From Pleomorphomonas sp. PLEO (GTDB lineage: Bacteria > Pseudomonadota > Alphaproteobacteria > Rhizobiales > Pleomorphomonadaceae): 64,000 bases of DNA. Positions 887-55,539 of this stretch are shown one piece after another (position 1 is the first letter of the stretch; the number at the start of each line of letters is the position of its first letter). Location: assembly GCF_041320595.1 (NCBI RefSeq), contig NZ_CP166625.1, positions 908,501-972,500 of the forward strand, read 5' to 3'. The notes below the pieces were generated by a model. That model was not told where the DNA came from. It worked only from the letters and a program-made list of their open reading frames with translations, and searched no databases. Both the position numbers and the translations under genes were made by a program.

Positions 887-2410
887 GTGATCCCATCCCC
901 GACCGCAGCGCCCGCCATCGAACTGATCGGCATCGACAAGAAGTTTGGCGCCGTCCACGCCAACAAGAACATCAACCTCACCGTCGCCAAGGGCTCGATC
1001 CACGGCATCATCGGCGAAAATGGCGCCGGCAAGTCGACGCTGATGTCGATCCTCTACGGCTTCTATCAGGCCGATGGTGGCTCGATCCGCATCAACGGCA
1101 AGGACACCGTCATCCATGACAGCCAGGCGGCGATTTCCGCCGGCATCGGCATGGTCCATCAGCACTTCATGCTGGTTGAGAATTTCTCCGTTCTTGAAAA
1201 CGTGATTCTCGGCGTCGAGGGCGGAGCGCTGCTCGGTCGAGGCGTCTCCGACGCCCGGTCGGCGCTGAAGCGCCTTGAGGCCGATTACGGGTTGGAGGTC
1301 GATCCCGACGCGATCATCGAGGAATTGCCGGTCGGTCTGCAGCAGCGTGTCGAGATCCTGAAGGCTCTGTACCGCGGCGCCGAGATCCTGATCCTCGACG
1401 AGCCCACCGGCGTATTGACGCCGGCCGAGGCCGACCACCTGTTCCGCATCCTCGGTGTGCTGCGCGATCAGGGCAAGACCATCGTTCTCATCACTCACAA
1501 GCTCCGCGAAATCATGGCGATCACCGACACGGTTTCGGTGATGCGGCGTGGCGAGATGGTGGCGACCCGTCACACCGCCGAGACGACGGTGGAGGAACTC
1601 GCCGAGCTGATGGTCGGCCGCCGCGTGCTTCTGCGCGTCGAAAAGGGGCCGGCCGCTCCGGGCGAGATCGTGCTGTCGGTCAGGAACCTTACGGTCAAGG
1701 ACGGCCGTGGCGTCACCATGGTCGATAACGTCTCCTTCGACGTTCGTGCCGGCGAGGTCGTCGGTATCGCCGGTGTTGCCGGCAACGGCCAGTCGGAGCT
1801 TCTTGAAGCGATCACCGGCATTCGCAAGCCGGCTTCCGGCGAGATCCTGATCAACGGCCAGCCGGTCACCGGTTTCGACGCTGCCCGCCTCAGGGCGCTC
1901 GGCCTCGGCCACATTCCCGAGGACCGGCACCACATGGGCCTCGTGCTGGGCTTCGAGGAGAGCGAAAATTCCGTCCTCGGCTATCACCGCGACCGGCGTT
2001 ATGGTCGGGGACCATTGCTCGACCTCGACGCTTGCCGCGAAGACGCCAAGGCCAAGATCGAGAAATACGATATCCGGCCGCCCAACTGTCGGCTGAAGAC
2101 CGCCAATTTTTCGGGCGGCAACCAGCAAAAAATCGTCGTTGCCCGTGAGATCGAGCGTGACCCGGCACTTCTGGTGGTGGGGCAGCCGACGCGTGGCGTC
2201 GACATCGGTGCCATCGAGTTCATCCATCGCCGGCTGATTGCCATGCGCGACGCCGGCAAGGCGGTGCTGCTGGTGTCGGTGGAACTCGATGAGATCCGCT
2301 CGTTATCCGACCGCATCCTCGTGATGTTTGCCGGCCATGTGGTCGGTGAGAAGACGCCCGACACTGGCGAACAGACCCTCGGCCTGATGATGGCCGGCAT
2401 TGCCGCGTGA
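887..2410 (+). CDS. Nucleoside ABC importer ATPase, two fused ABC domains
   Basis: Double ATP-binding subunit of a BMP-type (YufO/NupO-like) nucleoside importer, about 507 aa. The first domain carries Walker A GENGAGKST, a Q-loop region GMVHQHFML and the variant signature LPVGLQQRVEI typical of this family, then ILDEPTGVLTP. The second domain has a degenerate P-loop GVAGNGQSE and the signature FSGGNQQK. The GTG at 887 is preferred because a TTG at 854 would lie inside the terminator hairpin, and a GGAG sequence sits about 12 nt upstream of 887. The downstream permease begins 7 nt after the stop, so the genes are almost certainly cotranscribed. Confidence 0.9.
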   Translation: MIPSPTAAPAIELIGIDKKFGAVHANKNINLTVAKGSIHGIIGENGAGKSTLMSILYGFYQADGGSIRINGKDTVIHDSQAAISAGIGMVHQHFMLVENFSVLENVILGVEGGALLGRGVSDARSALKRLEADYGLEVDPDAIIEELPVGLQQRVEILKALYRGAEILILDEPTGVLTPAEADHLFRILGVLRDQGKTIVLITHKLREIMAITDTVSVMRRGEMVATRHTAETTVEELAELMVGRRVLLRVEKGPAAPGEIVLSVRNLTVKDGRGVTMVDNVSFDVRAGEVVGIAGVAGNGQSELLEAITGIRKPASGEILINGQPVTGFDAARLRALGLGHIPEDRHHMGLVLGFEESENSVLGYHRDRRYGRGPLLDLDACREDAKAKIEKYDIRPPNCRLKTANFSGGNQQKIVVAREIERDPALLVVGQPTRGVDIGAIEFIHRRLIAMRDAGKAVLLVSVELDEIRSLSDRILVMFAGHVVGEKTPDTGEQTLGLMMAGIAA

Positions 2411-2417
2411 GGCCGAG

Positions 2418-3521
2418 ATGAGCACCGCGTCCGTACCGCTTCCCAATTGGATCACCTACGGCTTGATGCCGTTCCTCAACCTTGTGGTTGCCTTCCTGAT
2501 TTCCGGCGTCGTCGTCTGGTTCATCGGCGAAAGCCCGCTCGAAGCCGTGAAGCTCCTCTTGCAGGGTGCCCTCGGCAACGGCGAGGGCATAGGCTTCACG
2601 CTCTATTATGCCACCAACTTCATTTTCACGGGCCTGTCGGTGGCGGTTGCCTACCACGCCGGCCTGTTCAACATCGGCTCGGAAGGCCAGGCCTATGTCG
2701 GCGGTCTCGGGGCGGCACTCGCCTCGCTCGCCCTCGACCACTACGTGCCCTGGTACGTGACCATGCCGTTCGCTGTGGCGGGCGCGGCGATTTTTGGCGC
2801 CGTCTGGGCGCTGATCCCGGCCTGGCTCCAAGCCAAGCGCGGCAGCCATATCGTCATCACCACTATCATGTTCAACTTCATCGGCGCGGCGTTGATGGTC
2901 TACCTGCTCGTTCACGTGCTGATCGTGCCGGGCAAGATGGCGCCGGAAACCCGCGTTTTCCTTGAGGGTGGCCAGCTTCCGAAGCTCGACTGGCTGATCG
3001 CCATGTTCGGTGGCAAGATCGGCGCGGCGCCCGTTAACATGTCGTTTCTGATCGCTCTGTTCATGTGCGTCGTCGTCTGGGCGCTGATCTGGCGAACCAA
3101 GCTCGGCTATGAAATCCGCACGCTCGGCGCCAGCCCGACGGCCGCCGTCTATGCCGGCATCCCCTACGTCAAGACGGTGATCATCACCATGCTGATTTCT
3201 GGTGGTCTGGCCGGCATGATGGCGCTCAATCCGGTGCTCGGCGCCTCGGCCCGGCTGCAGGTGGAGTTCGTCGGCGGCGCCGGCTTCGTCGGCATCGCCG
3301 TGTCGCTGATGGGACGCAGCCATCCGATCGGCATCGTGCTCGCCGCCATCCTGTTCGGTGTGCTCTACCAGGGTGGCGACGCCCTGTCCTTCGACATGCC
3401 GAAGATCACCCGCGACATGATCGTCGTCATCCAGGGTCTGGTGGTTCTGTTCGCCGGCGCCCTCGAATACATGTTCCGCCCGGCCATCGTCCGGGTGTGG
3501 CAGCGGTTCGGCAAGGCCTGA
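2418..3521 (+). CDS. Nucleoside ABC importer permease 1
   Basis: Integral membrane permease of the BPD_transp_2 / YufP (NupP) type, about 367 aa with many hydrophobic segments. The family sequence FNIGSEGQAYVGGLGAA and the later GASPTAAVYAGI region support the assignment. The ATG at 2418 follows a GAGGCCGAG sequence just after the ATPase stop. The stop is followed by AGGAGG, the ribosome site of the second permease. It should form a heterodimer with the next gene product in the inner membrane. Confidence 0.9.
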   Translation: MSTASVPLPNWITYGLMPFLNLVVAFLISGVVVWFIGESPLEAVKLLLQGALGNGEGIGFTLYYATNFIFTGLSVAVAYHAGLFNIGSEGQAYVGGLGAALASLALDHYVPWYVTMPFAVAGAAIFGAVWALIPAWLQAKRGSHIVITTIMFNFIGAALMVYLLVHVLIVPGKMAPETRVFLEGGQLPKLDWLIAMFGGKIGAAPVNMSFLIALFMCVVVWALIWRTKLGYEIRTLGASPTAAVYAGIPYVKTVIITMLISGGLAGMMALNPVLGASARLQVEFVGGAGFVGIAVSLMGRSHPIGIVLAAILFGVLYQGGDALSFDMPKITRDMIVVIQGLVVLFAGALEYMFRPAIVRVWQRFGKA

Positions 3522-47470: not shown

Positions 47471-48489
47471 CGGGTGGACGGGCGCTTCTTACGGCCCTTG
47501 CCGCCTTGATGACGATTACGACGGCCGCTTCGTCCGCCGATATTGCTACTCGCGTCACCGCGCGGCCGCTTCCCGCCTTCTCGATCGCCGAGCCGGCGAG
47601 GGTTCGTTTTGGCCAACTGGATTATGTCGGTGGCTTCGAGGTGAAGGCCGACCGGCGCGAAGTCGGCGGTCTTTCCGGTCTGGTGATCTCCGGCGCTGGC
47701 CGGAGCTTCCTGTCGCTCAGCGACGACGGATTCATGGTTCAGGCGAAGATTGAGCGCGACGCTCGCGGCAAGCCGACCGGCCTGTCGTCGGCCTCGATCC
47801 GTCGGTTGCAGACCCAAAAAGGGTCGCTGCCGCGCGACAAGGTTCTCTCCGACACCGAATCAATCGATGTTTATGCCGATGAAAACGGCCGGCCGTTTGG
47901 TGTTGTCTCCTTCGAGCAGCGGCCGACGGTAATGGTCGGCCCGCTCGGCGCCGATGGCTTCGTCGGCTCGCTGGTGGCGATCGACTTGCCGAAGGACGTT
48001 CGCCGTCTTCAGCCGAACCGGGGCCTCGAATCGGTGGCGGCGCTGCCGGCTGGCAACAGCCTTGGCGGCCGTTTCATCATTCTCGCCGAGGAGGCCGAGC
48101 GGGGCGCAACGACGGAGAATCAGCCAGGCTGGGTGATCGGCGGCAAGGCGCCTGTCGCTTTCCGCGTTCGTCGCTCAGCGGGCTACGACCTGACCGACGC
48201 CAAGGTTGGTCCCGATGGACGTCTTTACGTTCTGGAGAGGACTTTTTCCTTCTTGGCCGGTGTTCGCTGCCGCATCCGCGCCTTCCGCCTGTCCGATATC
48301 CGCCCTGGGGCGTTGATCGACGGTGACGTACTGTTCGAGGCGAGCATGTCGGAAGAGATCGATAACATGGAGGGGCTGTCGGTCTGGAAGATGGCGAGCG
48401 GCGAAACACGGATCTCGCTGATTTCCGATGACAATCACGCCTTTATCGAGCGGACGCTCTATCTCGAGTTCCGTCTCAGGACGCCATGA
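47467..48489 (+). CDS. Exported esterase-like/phytase-type beta-propeller protein
   Basis: Exported protein of 340 aa with a signal peptide ending SSAD. The family (esterase-like activity of phytase, PF13449) is suggested by [45 protein letters not shown] and NMEGLSVWK. It overlaps cobT by four bases and the next gene by four bases, forming a tight operon. Its link to cobalamin metabolism, if any, is unknown. Confidence 0.75.
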
Positions 48490-49481
48490 GCGACCGGCGC
48501 CTTCCCGCAGCCCTCGCCGCTGCCGTGTCCGAGCGTGCCCGGCCTGAGATGCTCGGTGCGGCGGCGGCCCGCTTATCGGCCGGCTATCGCGCCAATCTGA
48601 CGTCTCGCCAAGCTGTTCCCGACGCTGCCGGCGTCACCGCCTATGCGGCAAGCCGCATGCCCGCCACCTACGCGGCCGTCACGGCGGCTCTTGATCGCCT
48701 CGCGGCGAGCCAGCCTGATTTTGCACCGGAAACCGTGCTCGACCTTGGCTCAGGACCGGGCACGGCGAGCTGGGCGACCGCGATGCTGTGGCCCTCGGTC
48801 GTTTCCATCGCCATGGTGGAAGCCAGCGCCGATTTCCGCACCCTCGCCGCCGACCTGGCGCATGCCGGACCTCCGGCGCTTGGGCAAGCTGATATTCGCA
48901 GAGGCGACATCACCCAGCCCTCCAGCTTGCCGAATGGTCCGTTTGATCTGGCGGTCGTCGCTTATGCACTCACGGAACTTGATCTTCCCGCCGCTGAGCG
49001 GCTTGTCGCCGACCTGGTCGGTCGGGCTGGGCGCGTGGTGATCGTGGAGCCTGGGACGCCTCGCGATCATGGCCGGTTGATGATGGTGCGGCGAGCAGCG
49101 CTCGAAGCTGGCGCCCGCATTCTCGCGCCTTGCCCGCATGCTGGTCCCTGTCCCTTGCCGCCCGGCGACTGGTGCCATACGTCGGTGCGCGTCGAGCGGA
49201 GCCGCGCCCACATGCGCCTTAAGGGCGGGACGGTGCCGTTCGAAGACGAACGCTACGCCTATCTGGTGCTGGAATCGAAAGCCTTGGCTGTCGTGGAACA
49301 TGAAAACGGCGGCCGCATCCTGCGACCGCCGCGTCCTGCCAAGCATGAAATCGCCTTCAGCCTCTGTCGCGCCGACGGAACGCTTGGCGAAGCGCGGGTT
49401 GCCAGTCGCAACCGGGCCGCTTTCAAGGTGGCTGGCAAGCTCGACTGGGGTGATTTCCTGTCCGACGGTTTCTTGAGATAG
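48486..49481 (+). CDS. Rsm22-family methyltransferase-like protein
   Basis: Class I SAM-dependent methyltransferase, 331 aa. The SAM motif is VLDLGSGPGTASWA, and the family-type cysteine cluster appears as APCPHAGPCPLPPGDWCH. Rsm22-like proteins act on or with small ribosomal subunits. It overlaps the exported-protein gene by four bases. Confidence 0.82.
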   Translation: MSDRRLPAALAAAVSERARPEMLGAAAARLSAGYRANLTSRQAVPDAAGVTAYAASRMPATYAAVTAALDRLAASQPDFAPETVLDLGSGPGTASWATAMLWPSVVSIAMVEASADFRTLAADLAHAGPPALGQADIRRGDITQPSSLPNGPFDLAVVAYALTELDLPAAERLVADLVGRAGRVVIVEPGTPRDHGRLMMVRRAALEAGARILAPCPHAGPCPLPPGDWCHTSVRVERSRAHMRLKGGTVPFEDERYAYLVLESKALAVVEHENGGRILRPPRPAKHEIAFSLCRADGTLGEARVASRNRAAFKVAGKLDWGDFLSDGFLR

Positions 49482-50204: not shown

Positions 50205-50501
50205 TCAGGCGGCAACGACCTCGGCGGCCTTCTTGGCGATCTGCTTCTTGATCAGCCGAGCGCGCGTCGACAGTTCGTCGTCGCTCGCCTTGGCAAGAAA
50301 GGCATCAAGGCCGCCGCGATGCTCGACCGAACGCAGGGCGTTGGCGGAGATGCGCAGGCGCACCGACTGACCGAGCGTGTCGGACAGGAGCGTCACAGCC
50401 AGGAGATTCGGCAGAAAGCGCCGCTTGGTCCTGTTGTTGGCGTGGCTGACGTTATTACCCGTCAGAACGGCCTTGCCGGTAAGTTCGCAGCGCCGGGCCA
50501 T
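50205..50501 (-). CDS. rpmB: 50S ribosomal protein L28
   Basis: Ribosomal protein L28, 98 aa. It begins [28 protein letters not shown] with the family signature, and ends [10 protein letters not shown]. It is separated from the DUF3108 gene by a 423-bp divergent gap, and a terminator follows. Confidence 0.97.
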
Positions 50502-50924
50502 CGGGATACCCTCTTTTTCTGTTAGCGCGGGATCGAGGCCTTGCGGCCGCTCCTCGCGATGAAATAAGCCAAGGCGCCGCTTGCGTCATGCCGACGGCGC
50601 CGTTCAAGTCGCGTTCCTATAGTCGGTCGGCATCGGCCCCGTCAACCCCGGAAGCGAGCGGAAGCCGGCAAAAATGCCGTTTGGCCGGATGGAAGCGTCG
50701 TCAGCGCCGCCTATAGATTTCTCGCCACAGGAACATCGAGGCTTTCGCCGCGTTAACCATCCAGTTACCATGACAGCCGATCATCCGAAAGACGGTGGTC
50801 GGCCGACCGGTCGGCAGTCTCTCGCTGGCGGTGGCGTCGCCCGTCGGATGATCTTCAAGGCGTTGTTTCGGTCGCAGATGGCGGCCGAGGGTGAGACGGT
50901 TCGCCGTCTGCAAACGGAGGTTCC
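50502..50924. other. Divergent intergenic region rpmB / DUF3108 gene
   Basis: About 423 bp with no convincing gene on either strand. It should carry the rpmB promoter (leftward) and that of the DUF3108 gene (rightward). A TTAACCAT motif is at 50753-50760. Short frames here lack ribosome sites and family features. Confidence 0.55.
50753..50760 (+). promoter_or_regulatory. TTAACCAT motif upstream of the DUF3108 gene
   Basis: CtrA-type half-site sequence about 165 bp before the GTG at 50925, followed shortly by a near copy (TTACCAT). Motif identity only. Confidence 0.3.
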
Positions 50925-51785
50925 GTGGTGGCTCGTGTCGAAACTTTGCCGCGTCGTGCGAAAGGCGCCATGGCCGCGGCGGTCTTTGTCGCCACGCTGT
51001 CCGCCGTGCCGCCATCCGGGGCGGCGGTGGCGCGTGAGGGCGAGGTACAAGCTCTCTACGCCGCATCCTTCATGGGGATCGGCATTGCCAAGGGATCGCT
51101 GTCGATCAAGGTGGACCGAGGTGCCTACGCGGCCAAGCTGCACATTTCGACCGCCGGTCTCGCCCGCATCGTCAGTTCCGAAGAGAGCTTTGTCGACGCC
51201 AAGGGCTACGTGGGCCGTTCGCTGGTGCCATCCACTTATGACCTGATGAGCCGTGGCGACACGGTGACGCAGGTATCGATGGCGCTGGGCGGAGGCAATG
51301 TCCGTAGTCTCAAGGCCATACCCGAACTCGTCGAATACGATGACCGTGTGCCGGTGACGGCGGCGGCCAAGCGCCGCGTGGTCGACCCGCTGTCGGCGGC
51401 AATCCTGCCGATGATGCGTGATGACAAGGCCGATGGCAAAGACGTCTGCGATCGTACGCTGCCGGTGTTCGATGGCTGGACGCGCTATGATATCCAGCTC
51501 AGCTACACCAGTACCGATCCCGTCGATATTCCCGGATACAAGGGGGACGCGGTGCACTGCTCGGCGCGCTGGGTGCCGGTGGCCGGCCACCGCGAGGGCA
51601 CCAAGTCCACCGAATATATGCGTGACAACCAGAACCTTGATGTTTGGTTCGTGCCGATGGCCGAGGGACGGGTCATGGTGCCGAGCAAGATCTCGGTCCA
51701 GACAATGCGCGGACTGCTCCTAGTGGTCGCAACCCAGTTCGGCGAGAACGCCAAGCTGGGCAAGGTGGAGCAGGCCTCCAACTGA
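50925..51785 (+). CDS. Exported DUF3108-domain protein
   Basis: Exported protein, 286 aa from the GTG at 50925, which has the ribosome site GGAGG 4 nt upstream. A signal-like segment (KGAMAAAVFVATLSAVPPSGAA) precedes the mature part. DUF3108 features include LYAASFMGIGIAKGSLSIKV, YDLMSRGDTVTQVSMAL and the late VWFVPMAEGRVMVPSKISVQT. Proteins of this family are often periplasmic with unknown role. A clean terminator follows. Confidence 0.82.
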   Translation: MVARVETLPRRAKGAMAAAVFVATLSAVPPSGAAVAREGEVQALYAASFMGIGIAKGSLSIKVDRGAYAAKLHISTAGLARIVSSEESFVDAKGYVGRSLVPSTYDLMSRGDTVTQVSMALGGGNVRSLKAIPELVEYDDRVPVTAAAKRRVVDPLSAAILPMMRDDKADGKDVCDRTLPVFDGWTRYDIQLSYTSTDPVDIPGYKGDAVHCSARWVPVAGHREGTKSTEYMRDNQNLDVWFVPMAEGRVMVPSKISVQTMRGLLLVVATQFGENAKLGKVEQASN

Positions 51786-51813
51786 GTGTGGCCATCACGA
51801 TATCGATCGAAAG

Positions 51814-51839
51814 AGGCGCTCTTCAGGGCGCCTTTTTTA
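51814..51839 (+). terminator. Terminator after the DUF3108 gene
   Basis: Stem AGGCGC (51814-51819) / GCGCCT (51828-51833) followed by a TTTTTT run. It isolates the DUF3108 gene from the long intergenic region upstream of the helicase. Confidence 0.8.
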
Positions 51840-52091
51840 TTACCACCACATCCGAGTTTCCTGGTCGTTTTGTGCCAATTCGGGACATAGTTGTTAATTC
51901 TTCAGTGACCGACGCAGGCGATAAGTACGCCGCTCGGGCGACATCTTGTGCGCTGAGGCGCGGGTGATGGCAGATATGGGTGGGGCGAAACAAGAACATT
52001 GCCGTGTCGGCGATTCGGCCCGTGTTCGTTCCCGCTCTGTTGAAAGTGTTAACGCCGCCAGTCCTCTACTTTTGCGTCTCAGTATAATTGG

Positions 52092-52099
52092 TTAACCAT
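52092..52099 (+). promoter_or_regulatory. TTAACCAT motif abutting the GANTC cluster
   Basis: The motif ends one base before the GATTC at 52100. In the alphaproteobacterial cell cycle, CtrA-type motifs and CcrM sites often occur together in promoters. It is 300 bp from the helicase ATG, consistent with a promoter in this region. Confidence 0.35.
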
Positions 52100-52133
52100 G
52101 ATTCTGGTTTAGAGTCTTGCTGTCGATCTGCTC

Positions 52134-52162
52134 TTGACATCGATTCTAGTGGCGAATCGAAC
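52134..52162 (+). promoter_or_regulatory. Candidate promoter inside the GANTC cluster
   Basis: TTGACA (52134-52139), a 17-nt spacer and TCGAAC (52157-52162) as a weak -10. The spacer contains one GANTC site and most of a second, so adenine methylation could affect polymerase binding. Transcription from here would give a helicase leader of about 230 nt or a separate small RNA. Confidence 0.35.
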
Positions 52163-52398
52163 GACTCTCTCTGTGGAGTCTTCGGATTCAAGATAGCGAG
52201 GCGAAGACTCTGTCTGCATCCATATCTTGTAGGGAACGAATGCAGAATCTCTTTGAAATTGCGATTCGCCCCGCATCTGTTCTCGTTTGATTCCTTTTGG
52301 CGGCTGTCGCCATGCTTCTGCCGGTTTTCTCTGGCCTCTCAGGCGGGCTTTTTCGTATAGGAAGGTCACGGCGTCATCGCTCAACCGAACGGGACCTC

Positions 52399-55300
52399 AT
52401 GAACATTGTCCGAGCGGCCCCTCTGTCTTCGATCGCCCGTGCCCGGGCGGTAACGGCGGTTCTGGGGCCGACCAACACCGGCAAGACTCATCTCGCCATT
52501 GAAAAGATGCTGAGCCACGGCTCCGGCGCCATTGGCCTGCCGCTGCGCCTGCTGGCGCGCGAGGTCTATGGCCGGATCGTCGCCCGCGTCGGCGCGAGCG
52601 CGGTGGCATTGGTGACCGGCGAGGAGAAGATCGTGCCGCGCGACGCCCGCTACTGGGTGGCGACGGTGGAGGCAATGCCTCGCGACCTGGACGTGGCTTT
52701 CGTCGCTATCGATGAGGTGCAACTCGCCGGTGACATAGAGCGGGGGCACGTGTTCACCGACCGGCTGCTGAACGTGCGTGGGCGGCAGGAAACCATGCTG
52801 CTCGGCTCCGCGACGGCGCGGCCGCTGATCGAGCGCCTGTTGCCGGGCGTTGCCGTTACCTCGCGACCGCGTCTCAGCCATCTCGCCTACACCGGGGCCA
52901 AGAAGATCACCCGCTTGCCGCCACGTTCGGCCATCGTCGCCTTTTCCGCCGACGAGGTTTATGCCGTCGCCGAGCTAATCCGTCGCCAGCGCGGCGGCGC
53001 GGCCGTGGTGATGGGCGCGCTTTCCCCCCGTACCCGCAACGCGCAGGTGGCTCTCTTTCAGAATGGCGAGGTCGACTTTCTGGTGGCGACCGACGCCGTC
53101 GGCATGGGGCTCAACCTCGATGTCGATCATGTCGCCTTCGCTCAGGCGCGCAAGTTCGACGGCTATCAGTATCGCGGCCTGACGTCCGCCGAACTCGGTC
53201 AGATCGCCGGTCGGGCCGGTCGCTATCTCAACGATGGTACCTTTGGCGTCACAGGCCGGGTCATGCCGTTCGACGACGACACCGTCACGGCCATCGAGGG
53301 GCATGACTTCGAACCGGTGGGCATCTTTCAGTGGCGTAACGGCGACCTCGATTTTTCGTCGGTCGACGCGCTCCGGGCCTCACTCGAGAAGCTGCCTGGG
53401 GTAGAGGGATTGACCCGGGCGCTGCCATCCGATGATCAGCGAGCGCTCGACTTCGCTCTTCGGGCAGAGGATGTGGCGGCGGCGGCGTATGGTCGCGAAC
53501 GGGTGGCGCTTCTTTGGGACGTGTGCCAACTTCCCGACTTCCGCAAGATATCACCGGCGCAGCACGGTGATCTCATCGTCGCACTCTATCGATTCCTCAT
53601 TGCAAAAGGCGTGATTCCAGACGATTGGTTTGCACGGCAGGTCGGGTTGTCTGACAGGACGGATGGCGATATCGATACGTTGTCGCGGCGTCTGGCGGAC
53701 ATCAGGACCTGGACCTTTGTCGCCAATCGGCCGGACTGGCTGTTTGCGCCCGGCCATTGGCGGGAGAAGACGCGCGCCATCGAGGATCGGCTGTCGGATG
53801 CGTTGCATGAACGGTTGACCCAGCGTTTCGTGGATCGCCGGACATCGGTATTGTTGAAGAGATTGAGAGAGAACACCATGCTCGAAGCTGAAATCACCGG
53901 TACCGGCGGCGTGCTCGTCGAAGGGCAGGCGGTCGGTGAGCTGCACGGCTTCCGCTTCGTGCCCGATCCGGGTGTTGGCGGCGATGGCTCCGAAGCCAAA
54001 GCGCTGAAAGCGGCCGCCCAACAGGCGCTGTCCGGAGAGTTCGACAAGCGCGCGGAGAAAATCTCCAAAGCGCCGAACGAGGAAATCGTGCTGTCCACCG
54101 ATGGCAGCCTGCGCTGGCTCGGCGAGCCTGTGGGGCGATTGGTGGCCGGTGACGATACGCTGACGCCGCGCGTGATGCTGCTCGCCGACGAGCAGCTTGC
54201 CGGTGCCGCCCGTGAGAAAGCCCAGGATAGGCTCGACCTCTGGGTCGGCGCCCACATTCAGACGCTCCTGAAGCCGCTGTTCGATCTGCGCACCGCCGCC
54301 GATCTCGAAGGTATCGCGCGTGGCGTTTCCTTCCGCATGGTCGAAGCGCTCGGCACCGTCGAGCGGCATGACATAGCCGACGACGTCAAGGCGCTCGATC
54401 AGACGCAGCGCGCCGTCATGCGCAAGTATGGCGTCCGCTTCGGTGCCTACCACATTTATGTGCCGGCGCTCCTGAAGCCGGCGCCGGCCGCCCTGGTGGC
54501 CCAGCTCTGGGCGTTGAAGCACGGCTCGCTGGACATGGCGGGCCTTGCCGAGCTGCCGCAGCTCTCTGCCTCCGGCCGCACCTCGATCAAGGTCGATCCG
54601 GCCTTCGACAAGACGCTTTATCGTCTCGTCGGCTTCCGCGTCGCCGGCGAGCGGGCCGTCCGTCTCGACATCCTGGAGCGTCTTGCCGATATCATCCGGC
54701 CGTTGATCGCCTTCAAGTCGGTGGACGGCGCCACGCCTCCCGAAGGCGCGCTGCCGCAGGGCGGCAGCTTCACGGTGACGGTGGCGATGACCTCGCTGCT
54801 CGGCTGTTCGGGCGAAGACTTTGCCTCCATCCTGCGCGGTCTGGGCTATCGTTCCGAGAAGCGGACAATCAAGGTGCCTGTCAAGCCTCAGAAGGCCGAA
54901 GCATCGGCTGACGGCGTGACGTCCGAGACGGTGCCGGCAGTTGCTGATGTGGCGGAGGTTTCGACCGAAGCCTCGACCGAGACGCCCGTCGTGGAGACTT
55001 CTTTGGTCGATGCACCGGCTGCTGAGGCCCAGATGCCGGCCGCCGACGCCACCGAAGCGTCGGCTGACGTCGCTGCCGCGGAAAGTGCGCCCACCGCTGA
55101 AGGGGCTGTCGAAGTGCCCGCCGAAGCGGCTGAGACCGTGGCCTTCGAGGATCGGGAAGTCGACGTCTGGCGGCCAGGTCGCGGCGACCGTCCACGGCAT
55201 GGTGATCACAGAGGCGATCAGCGCAACGAGCGTCGTGGCGGTCCGCATCGCGGTGCGGCGGCGACCCGTCCGGGTGAACCCGCTGAGGCAGCTCCCGCCG

Positions 55301-55539
55301 ATGGACGTAGTCCCCGCGCGCAGGATGACCGCCGCCAGGACCGTCGACCACAGGGTGAGCGGCGCGAAGGGCGCGAAGAGCGCCGCTTCGGAGATCGTCG
55401 CGACGGCCGTCCTGTCGAGCGGAACGGTGAGCGCCCCCCCGAGCGCGCGCCGCGCAAGGAAAAGGTCGCCGATCCCAATTCACCGTTTGCCGCGCTGGCG
55501 GCCCTCAAGGCGTCGCTTGAGCAGCAGAAGAAGAAGTAG
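52399..55539 (+). CDS. SUV3-like superfamily 2 helicase with disordered C-terminal tail
   Basis: DEAD/DExH-type RNA helicase, 1046 aa from the ATG at 52399. Motif I is GPTNTGKT (23-30), motif II is DEVQ (105-108), motif III is SATARPLI, and motif VI is QIAGRAGRY. It resembles mitochondrial SUV3 and its alphaproteobacterial relatives. The last 220 residues are low complexity: first Ala/Glu/Thr-rich and acidic, then Arg/Gly/Asp/Glu-rich, ending ASLEQQKKK. A probable RNA helicase in RNA decay or ribosome biogenesis. The next gene, an S4 RNA-binding protein, starts 14 bp downstream. Confidence 0.88.
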   Translation: MNIVRAAPLSSIARARAVTAVLGPTNTGKTHLAIEKMLSHGSGAIGLPLRLLAREVYGRIVARVGASAVALVTGEEKIVPRDARYWVATVEAMPRDLDVAFVAIDEVQLAGDIERGHVFTDRLLNVRGRQETMLLGSATARPLIERLLPGVAVTSRPRLSHLAYTGAKKITRLPPRSAIVAFSADEVYAVAELIRRQRGGAAVVMGALSPRTRNAQVALFQNGEVDFLVATDAVGMGLNLDVDHVAFAQARKFDGYQYRGLTSAELGQIAGRAGRYLNDGTFGVTGRVMPFDDDTVTAIEGHDFEPVGIFQWRNGDLDFSSVDALRASLEKLPGVEGLTRALPSDDQRALDFALRAEDVAAAAYGRERVALLWDVCQLPDFRKISPAQHGDLIVALYRFLIAKGVIPDDWFARQVGLSDRTDGDIDTLSRRLADIRTWTFVANRPDWLFAPGHWREKTRAIEDRLSDALHERLTQRFVDRRTSVLLKRLRENTMLEAEITGTGGVLVEGQAVGELHGFRFVPDPGVGGDGSEAKALKAAAQQALSGEFDKRAEKISKAPNEEIVLSTDGSLRWLGEPVGRLVAGDDTLTPRVMLLADEQLAGAAREKAQDRLDLWVGAHIQTLLKPLFDLRTAADLEGIARGVSFRMVEALGTVERHDIADDVKALDQTQRAVMRKYGVRFGAYHIYVPALLKPAPAALVAQLWALKHGSLDMAGLAELPQLSASGRTSIKVDPAFDKTLYRLVGFRVAGERAVRLDILERLADIIRPLIAFKSVDGATPPEGALPQGGSFTVTVAMTSLLGCSGEDFASILRGLGYRSEKRTIKVPVKPQKAEASADGVTSETVPAVADVAEVSTEASTETPVVETSLVDAPAAEAQMPAADATEASADVAAAESAPTAEGAVEVPAEAAETVAFEDREVDVWRPGRGDRPRHGDHRGDQRNERRGGPHRGAAATRPGEPAEAAPADGRSPRAQDDRRQDRRPQGERREGREERRFGDRRDGRPVERNGERPPERAPRKEKVADPNSPFAALAALKASLEQQKKK

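Follow-up and report, generated by a model that had tools for sequence, protein, structure and literature searches.

A conserved GANTC-rich element upstream of a SUV3-like helicase gene, probably a replication-timed control switch

Introduction

The intergenic gap in front of a SUV3-like helicase gene of Pleomorphomonas sp. PLEO carries a dense group of GANTC pentamers, the sites of CcrM methylation, and the question is what these sites do before this one gene. The source genome consists of a single contig (5,476,363 bases); the stretch of DNA analyzed here, referred to as the window, comprises its positions 908501-972500 (64,000 bases); unless a locus is named, base coordinates are window positions. 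We propose, with a probability of roughly 0.55, that the stretch is an upstream control element (a promoter array) of the helicase gene which is read through CcrM methylation. The conserved upstream element itself is well supported, and we infer the methylation mechanism, the action on the promoter, and the timing, which would make it probably a replication-timed control switch.

The Locus and Its GANTC Cluster

The gap (Table 1) has a GC content of 52%, against 63% for the window. The longest open reading frame (ORF) of the helicase begins at TTG 52297, and downstream of the gene an S4-domain gene and then a CarD gene are found (ORFs, Pfam). Two ORFs lie within the gap, 52088-52360 on the plus strand and 52109-52384 on the minus strand, and single-base length changes occur in and around them in the alignment of close relatives, which are Pleomorphomonas species. 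A few genes away from the helicase, at 48486-49481, a mitochondrial Rsm22 family protein is encoded (Pfam 6.3e-64); the Rsm22 and SUV3 families are both known from mitochondria. On the chromosome, GC skew reaches its minimum somewhere between the samples taken at 0.49 and 0.55 Mb, about 0.4 Mb from the cluster at 0.96 Mb.

Table 1: Features of the gap and of the helicase gene (window positions).
Feature	Position	Strand	Description and basis
Non-coding gap, DUF3108 gene to helicase gene	51786..52398	.	ORFs, Pfam
Module copy 1	51982..52053	+	GAACA...GTCGGCGATTCG...TTCGTTC-N7-GTTG...GTTAAC; holds GANTC 52012; R1 E 4.4e-13 (circular)
GTTAAC	52048..52053	.	end of module copy 1
GTTAACCAT	52091..52099	+	sequence and close-relative alignment
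GANTC array	52100..52293	.	11 sites; eight (52100-52206) between the two module copies
TTGACA, -35-like	52134..52139	+	invariant in 13 aligned sequences; absent from promoter-scan output
Mirror-order GANTC quartet	52154..52189	.	GAATC-N4-GACTC-N8-GAGTC-N4-GATTC
Module copy 2	52232..52298	+	GAACGAATGCAGAATC...GCGATTCG...TGTTC-N7-ATTC; holds GANTC 52245, 52263, 52289; R1 E 8.3e-10 (circular)
TATAGG, possible -10 of helicase promoter (inference only)	52356..52361	+	CGTATAGGGAA in close relatives; no scan match
SUV3-like helicase gene	52399..55539	+	1046 aa from ATG; Pfam DEXQc_Suv3 1.1e-24, Helicase_C 3.8e-11

GANTC starts at 52100, 52112, 52142, 52154, 52163, 52176, 52185, 52206, 52245, 52263, and 52289; the twelfth site of the gap, at 52012, lies outside this 194-bp core. 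The count given by an earlier, sequence-only reading of this DNA, eleven sites in 194 bp and one more at 52012, is exact on recount. Its estimate of less than one expected holds at the genome rate (0.27), but not for the core's own dinucleotides, from which 2.5 are expected. Across the whole window the pentamer is much rarer than expected, with 98 occurrences where dinucleotide shuffles average 333, and outside the cluster the densest 200 bp hold 3. A genome sample of 2.044 Mb, about 37% of the 5.476 Mb, was made up of 99 evenly spaced 20-kb stretches and the window, a hundredth stretch having fallen inside the window and been dropped. It contains 2864 GANTC, or 0.28 per 200 bp, and over this 37% of the genome the cluster ranks first with 11 per 200 bp and the next-best places hold 5, so that the density is unusual, as had been claimed. 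Two low-G+C stretches, G000:C1:2519099-2539098 and 711920-731919 (0.51 and 0.55 versus about 0.63), are perhaps foreign DNA.

When the 613-bp gap was shuffled, none of 2000 versions reached 12 GANTC (mean 3.9, maximum 11), and none of 2000 shuffles of the 194-bp core reached 11 (mean 2.5, maximum 8). Among the 24 pentamers with the same four letters around N, each of the other 23 occurs at most 4 times in the core.

Conservation and Arrangement of the Sites

The close alignment comprises 13 distinct sequences, namely the window, ten loci, and two other genomes, after the removal of nine duplicates. All four GANTC letters are invariant at 10 of the 12 sites, and the two variable sites are 52142, kept in 11/13, and 52100, kept in 2/13. 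Equal invariance is found in 9 of the 188 other, non-overlapping pentamers of the alignment; the sites are kept far beyond the flanking sequence. The mirror-order quartet retains all four sites in 13/13 rows, one of which alters the middle base of two. At 9 of the 11 sites kept by most rows the middle base never varies, which is more than methylation alone would require. The suggestion that the cluster is part of a conserved non-coding element was clearly right, and with the module described below the conservation reaches further than that reading supposed.

The same holds over a larger set of 80 related loci, all of which possess this SUV3-like helicase gene. Over the 600 bp that precede it, GANTC occurs at 9.5 per kb against 1.35 elsewhere (7.1-fold), and seven other palindromic pentamers give 0.7- to 1.5-fold in the same comparison. 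The densest 200 bp near the helicase gene hold more GANTC than any other 200 bp of the locus in 55 of the 80 loci, as many in 10, and fewer in 15. GANTC upstream of a gene and conserved in its orthologues, as looked for in a CcrM/GcrA promoter, is therefore what is found here.

Simple helical phasing of the whole window array is weak: for the 11 sites, 39 of 5000 random sets were as well phased at 10.5 bp and 259 with a free period, the corresponding numbers being 202 and 879 for all 12 sites and 875 and 704 for the ten conserved ones. Among the other loci, phasing is strong in L023 (2/5000, free period), moderate in several, and absent in L010 and L078. In four related loci of the Phreatobacter type, the arrays between the modules proceed in 10-, 21-, and 31-bp steps, and 41 of 52 spacings lie near multiples of 10.5 bp; up to 15 GANTC fall within 420 bp in some loci. 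Between the inter-module arrays of Pleomorphomonas and those of the Phreatobacter type, blastn-short aligns only short words and the module start. Since they do not align, such arrays have probably arisen here on more than one occasion.

The Module of about 70 bp

The persistence of GANTC upstream of the helicase is due to a DNA module of about 70 bp, whose consensus is GAACRAA..GAA..GTCAGCGATTCG..TTYGTTC-N7-GTTC..TTAA. A sequence model, R1, was derived from 68 copies, the two of the window included, so that its scores at the window are circular; with this limit, exactly two matches at E <= 0.01 are found in the source genome, both in the gap. An independent HMM was trained on 52 copies from loci L011-L080 only, the window not being included. 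It detects copy 1 at 51986-52046 (E 1.5e-7) and copy 2 at 52213-52284 (E 4.5e-6), as well as two copies in each of the ten closest loci, and the genome sample otherwise yields nothing better than E 1.7.

In total, 103 anchored copies were obtained from the window and 68 of the 80 loci, with two or more in 26 of the 69 sources; in the other 12 helicase loci no module was found. Anchored copies were chosen for GATTC[GC] and a following GTT, and those letters are therefore 100% by construction; three HMM matches that lack the anchor were left out, and 68 of the 103 modules entered the alignment. With the core GATTC set at 0, the consensus shows GAAC at -29, AA at -24, A at -17, GTC at -6, and GATTCG at 0 (anchor), followed on the right by T at 13, GTTC at 16 (anchor), GTTC at 27, and TTAA at 37. 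Further GANTC sites occupy fixed slots, some 11 bp apart, relative to the core, at -25 in 10 of the 69 sources, -18/-19 in 29, -8 in 34, +11 in 21, +22 in 26, and +26 in 10. The information peaks outside the anchor columns recur most strongly at a period of 11.0 bp, a strength equalled in 46 of 2000 permutations. RNAalifold predicts no pairs on the 68 modules, which indicates that the element acts as DNA. The two modules and the lineage-specific array of CcrM sites between them are all under strong selection.

In a Xanthobacter assembly (L061, 3200-3880), seven tandem module copies are located upstream of the helicase at a spacing of about 99-108 bp. Each unit has one GATTCG, in most cases with the palindrome GTCCCGNNNCGGGAC, which is also present in L036, L047, L070, and L080.

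Candidate promoter parts are also present in the gap. GTTAAC and GTTAACCAT (Table 1) are presumably like CtrA half-sites; upstream of the helicase, GTTAAC is found 59 times in 35 of the 80 loci, 25-fold denser than elsewhere. A promoter scan returned nothing convincing, and no convincing -10 stands at 17 bp from the TTGACA. A -10-like TTGTGATAC occurs about 65 bp past the core in 19 of 68 loci and is absent from the window.

Distribution of the Module

The module tracks the helicase gene across Hyphomicrobiales and into other orders. R1 matches 33 of 40 relatives, that is, 20/20 of the family and 13/20 others of the order. Of 192 genomes drawn evenly from the class, 130 have the SUV3-like helicase at E <= 1e-60 and 23 match R1, the source genome included; of the other 22, 16 have the same helicase downstream of the match within the flank retrieved, and 14 of these 16 are outside the order. 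These class-wide scans were filtered more strictly and overlook AT-rich copies; in G019, two copies were recognized by eye alone.

Six matches have no adjacent helicase, and four of them are weak, partial, and probably due to chance. G082 has a module-like match and no helicase match; this 1.7-Mb genome also gives 18 matches to the CcrM protein, that is, many related DNA methylases. In G209 (92% complete) the helicase is located 4.7 kb downstream of the module with other genes between. The interval (L256, G209:C67, 1957-6464) holds a MerR-type regulator, a MerT-like gene, and an acyl-CoA synthetase-like gene, and it looks as if these had been inserted into an old module-helicase pair; such neighbor names, the Mer-type and leuA-like ones among them, were read from translations by eye. 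In G037 there are four extra copies at a distance from the helicase: three are flanked by convergent genes, and the fourth precedes a leuA-like gene; they sit in L253 (G037:C1:3893500-3899500) at 2404-3175 and in L254 at about 2400-2464. One extra copy away from the helicase is present in G016, and the extra copies of these two genomes show that a strict one-gene rule does not fit. In L051 the module lies 2.4 kb upstream, with two genes intervening, and heads a run of overlapping genes ending in the helicase, a position as expected of a promoter.

CcrM, GcrA, and the Proposed Mechanism

The methylation reading had been made dependent on a ccrM gene, and both ccrM and gcrA are present in the source genome, gcrA at 0.46 Mb and one CcrM-type methylase gene at 4.39 Mb. 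GcrA is found in 21/21 relatives, and CcrM at E <= 1e-140 in 27 of 28 genomes examined, G209 giving only a 25% match. In the class draw CcrM was found in 139 of 192 genomes. Among the helicase-bearing genomes of the class, the module is next to the gene in 15 of 113 that are CcrM-positive and in 0 of 17 that are CcrM-negative, a link that is not significant (Fisher one-sided 0.11). When upstream regions were read, 0 of 16 CcrM-negative genomes had an adjacent module, G209 having a displaced one, and 1 of 25 CcrM-positive genomes missed by R1 had an adjacent module-like stretch, at only E 0.03. The extended GcrA motif YGAKTCK shows no enrichment among the sites (5 of 12, versus 30 of 86 elsewhere in the window), and it may be less specific in this order.

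The proposed control element would operate as follows. Proteins lined up on one face of the DNA would influence the helicase promoter downstream, and CcrM would methylate the GANTC sites of the array. Given its distance of about 0.4 Mb from the skew minimum, the locus would be copied early and, CcrM being active late in the cycle, would remain hemimethylated up to that point. This state could then be read by GcrA or another methylation-sensing binder, and the readout would tie helicase transcription to the passage of the replication fork. Methylation of the element may act in either an activating or a repressing sense. Replication-dependent hemimethylation and a methyl-sensitive protein, both named by the sequence-only reading, are plausible.

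A more specific form of this proposal is possible, though on balance doubtful. The stretch might be a previously undescribed methylation integrator dedicated to one gene, in which a helically phased, repeated module precedes one helicase gene in several alphaproteobacterial orders and CcrM sites have piled up independently in different lineages; the number or the strand state of the methylated sites, rather than any single site, would set the timing or the level of helicase expression in the cell cycle. Among the papers searched, no title or abstract describes a GANTC cluster or this module before the helicase; supplements or figures could list such a locus.

Alternative Explanations

The conserved middle bases (9/11) and the 11-bp rhythm would also suit a platform for a cooperative DNA-binding protein that recognises GANTC only as part of its target, with methylation playing no role. 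The module is indeed longer and more specific than GANTC, and G209, which lacks a good CcrM match, retains it 4.7 kb upstream of the helicase, a case that counts against the methylation reading. However, the arrays of Pleomorphomonas and of the Phreatobacter type have hardly anything but GANTC in common, an indication that the methylation site itself matters, and in the relative L007 two adjacent sites have changed their middle bases and yet stayed GANTC. We regard such a platform as unlikely. The chief competing reading, a LexA (SOS) operator, is quite unlikely as well; in it the GTTC-N7-GTTC half of the module would be the alphaproteobacterial LexA box, and GANTC would arise by overlap; according to the text of PMC7987155, this box readily overlaps GANTC. 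The exact box is found upstream of the helicase in 50 of the 80 loci (1.12 per kb versus 0.02 elsewhere), a LexA domain is encoded in 25 of 26 module-bearing genomes including the source genome, and GAAC-N7-GAAC stands before lexA in 6/6 loci examined. On the other hand, the exact box is absent from the gap, which has four 7-of-8 matches, and from the ten closest loci (L001-L010), where module and sites are kept; G018 (94% complete) has an exact box and no LexA match. The boxes are skewed in orientation, 54 GTTC against 3 GAAC, and of the 61 GTTC-N7-GTTC boxes in the genome sample, none is preceded by a GANTC at a distance of 16 bp. A LexA box also leaves the core GATTCG, the GAACRAA arm, and the inter-module arrays unaccounted for.

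The sequence-only reading had further considered an origin-like landmark. In its general form, the stretch would serve as a landmark on the chromosome or, in the manner of datA, would titrate a protein that takes part in replication or senses methylation, a sink of this kind being doubled soon after replication begins. The distance of about 0.4 Mb to the skew minimum, the high site numbers reached within 420 bp in some loci, and the modules away from the helicase in G037 are in keeping with it, as are DnaA boxes TTATNCACA upstream of the helicase, 10 in 9 of the 80 loci against about 0.003 per kb elsewhere (64-fold). The skew of G037, taken from 20 stretches of 15 kb, is too irregular to place its origin. 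Against a landmark, the element follows one gene across orders, and the window contains no DnaA box TTATNCACA, so that this explanation is very improbable. As a chromosome origin the stretch was rejected, since it lies off the GC-skew minimum (0.5-0.55 versus 0.96 Mb) and lacks such boxes; the origin-like claim fails on these points and because the module goes with the helicase. Hardly credible, finally, is a structured non-coding RNA gene or riboregulator. The conserved intergenic sequence would fit one, but it was ruled out by a fold z-score of -0.07 for 52088-52310, by the lack of RNAalifold pairs, and by Rfam, which gave no match at gathering score in 50500-53000 and none of its six weaker matches in 52000-52300.

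Relation to Known Systems and Significance

The methylation-responsive control element proposed here has its nearest counterpart in the gcrA promoter of Agrobacterium tumefaciens, of a related order, where, as described in the text of PMC11514494, a 250-bp stretch immediately before one gene contains six GANTC and methylation makes the promoter less active. That region is half as dense, precedes another gene, and has no repeated module reported in this text (PMC11514494), whereas 12 sites, two modules, and deep conservation are found here, known from sequence alone. The CcrM/GcrA-regulated promoters of Caulobacter and Brevundimonas are alike in having GANTC upstream and both CcrM and GcrA present, as the text of PMC7987155 presents them. 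According to the same source, CcrM/GcrA targets are strongly rewired between orders and change quickly between species, unlike the element studied here, which the same gene keeps across orders and in which YGAKTCK is not enriched. The word "helicase" is absent from the text of that article, figures and data sets aside. In 50 of the 80 loci the alphaproteobacterial LexA box given in the text of PMC7987155 makes up the module's right arm; in the source genome, by contrast, it is inexact, and it is set within a larger oriented module. It has also been described, in the text of PMC5172544, that GANTC shielded by MucR is hypomethylated, so that a protein bound nearby can keep CcrM off; no cluster is described in that text, unlike the array here.

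Among the fast-changing CcrM/GcrA targets outlined in the text of PMC7987155, one that retained its sites at set places in front of a single gene through several orders would stand out as an exception. If true, such a conserved target would provide a clean model for the bacterial reading of DNA methylation, and the tandem arrays, with seven copies in one Xanthobacter assembly, make dose-response tests easy. It would also give a first handle on the uncharacterised and widespread SUV3-like helicase.
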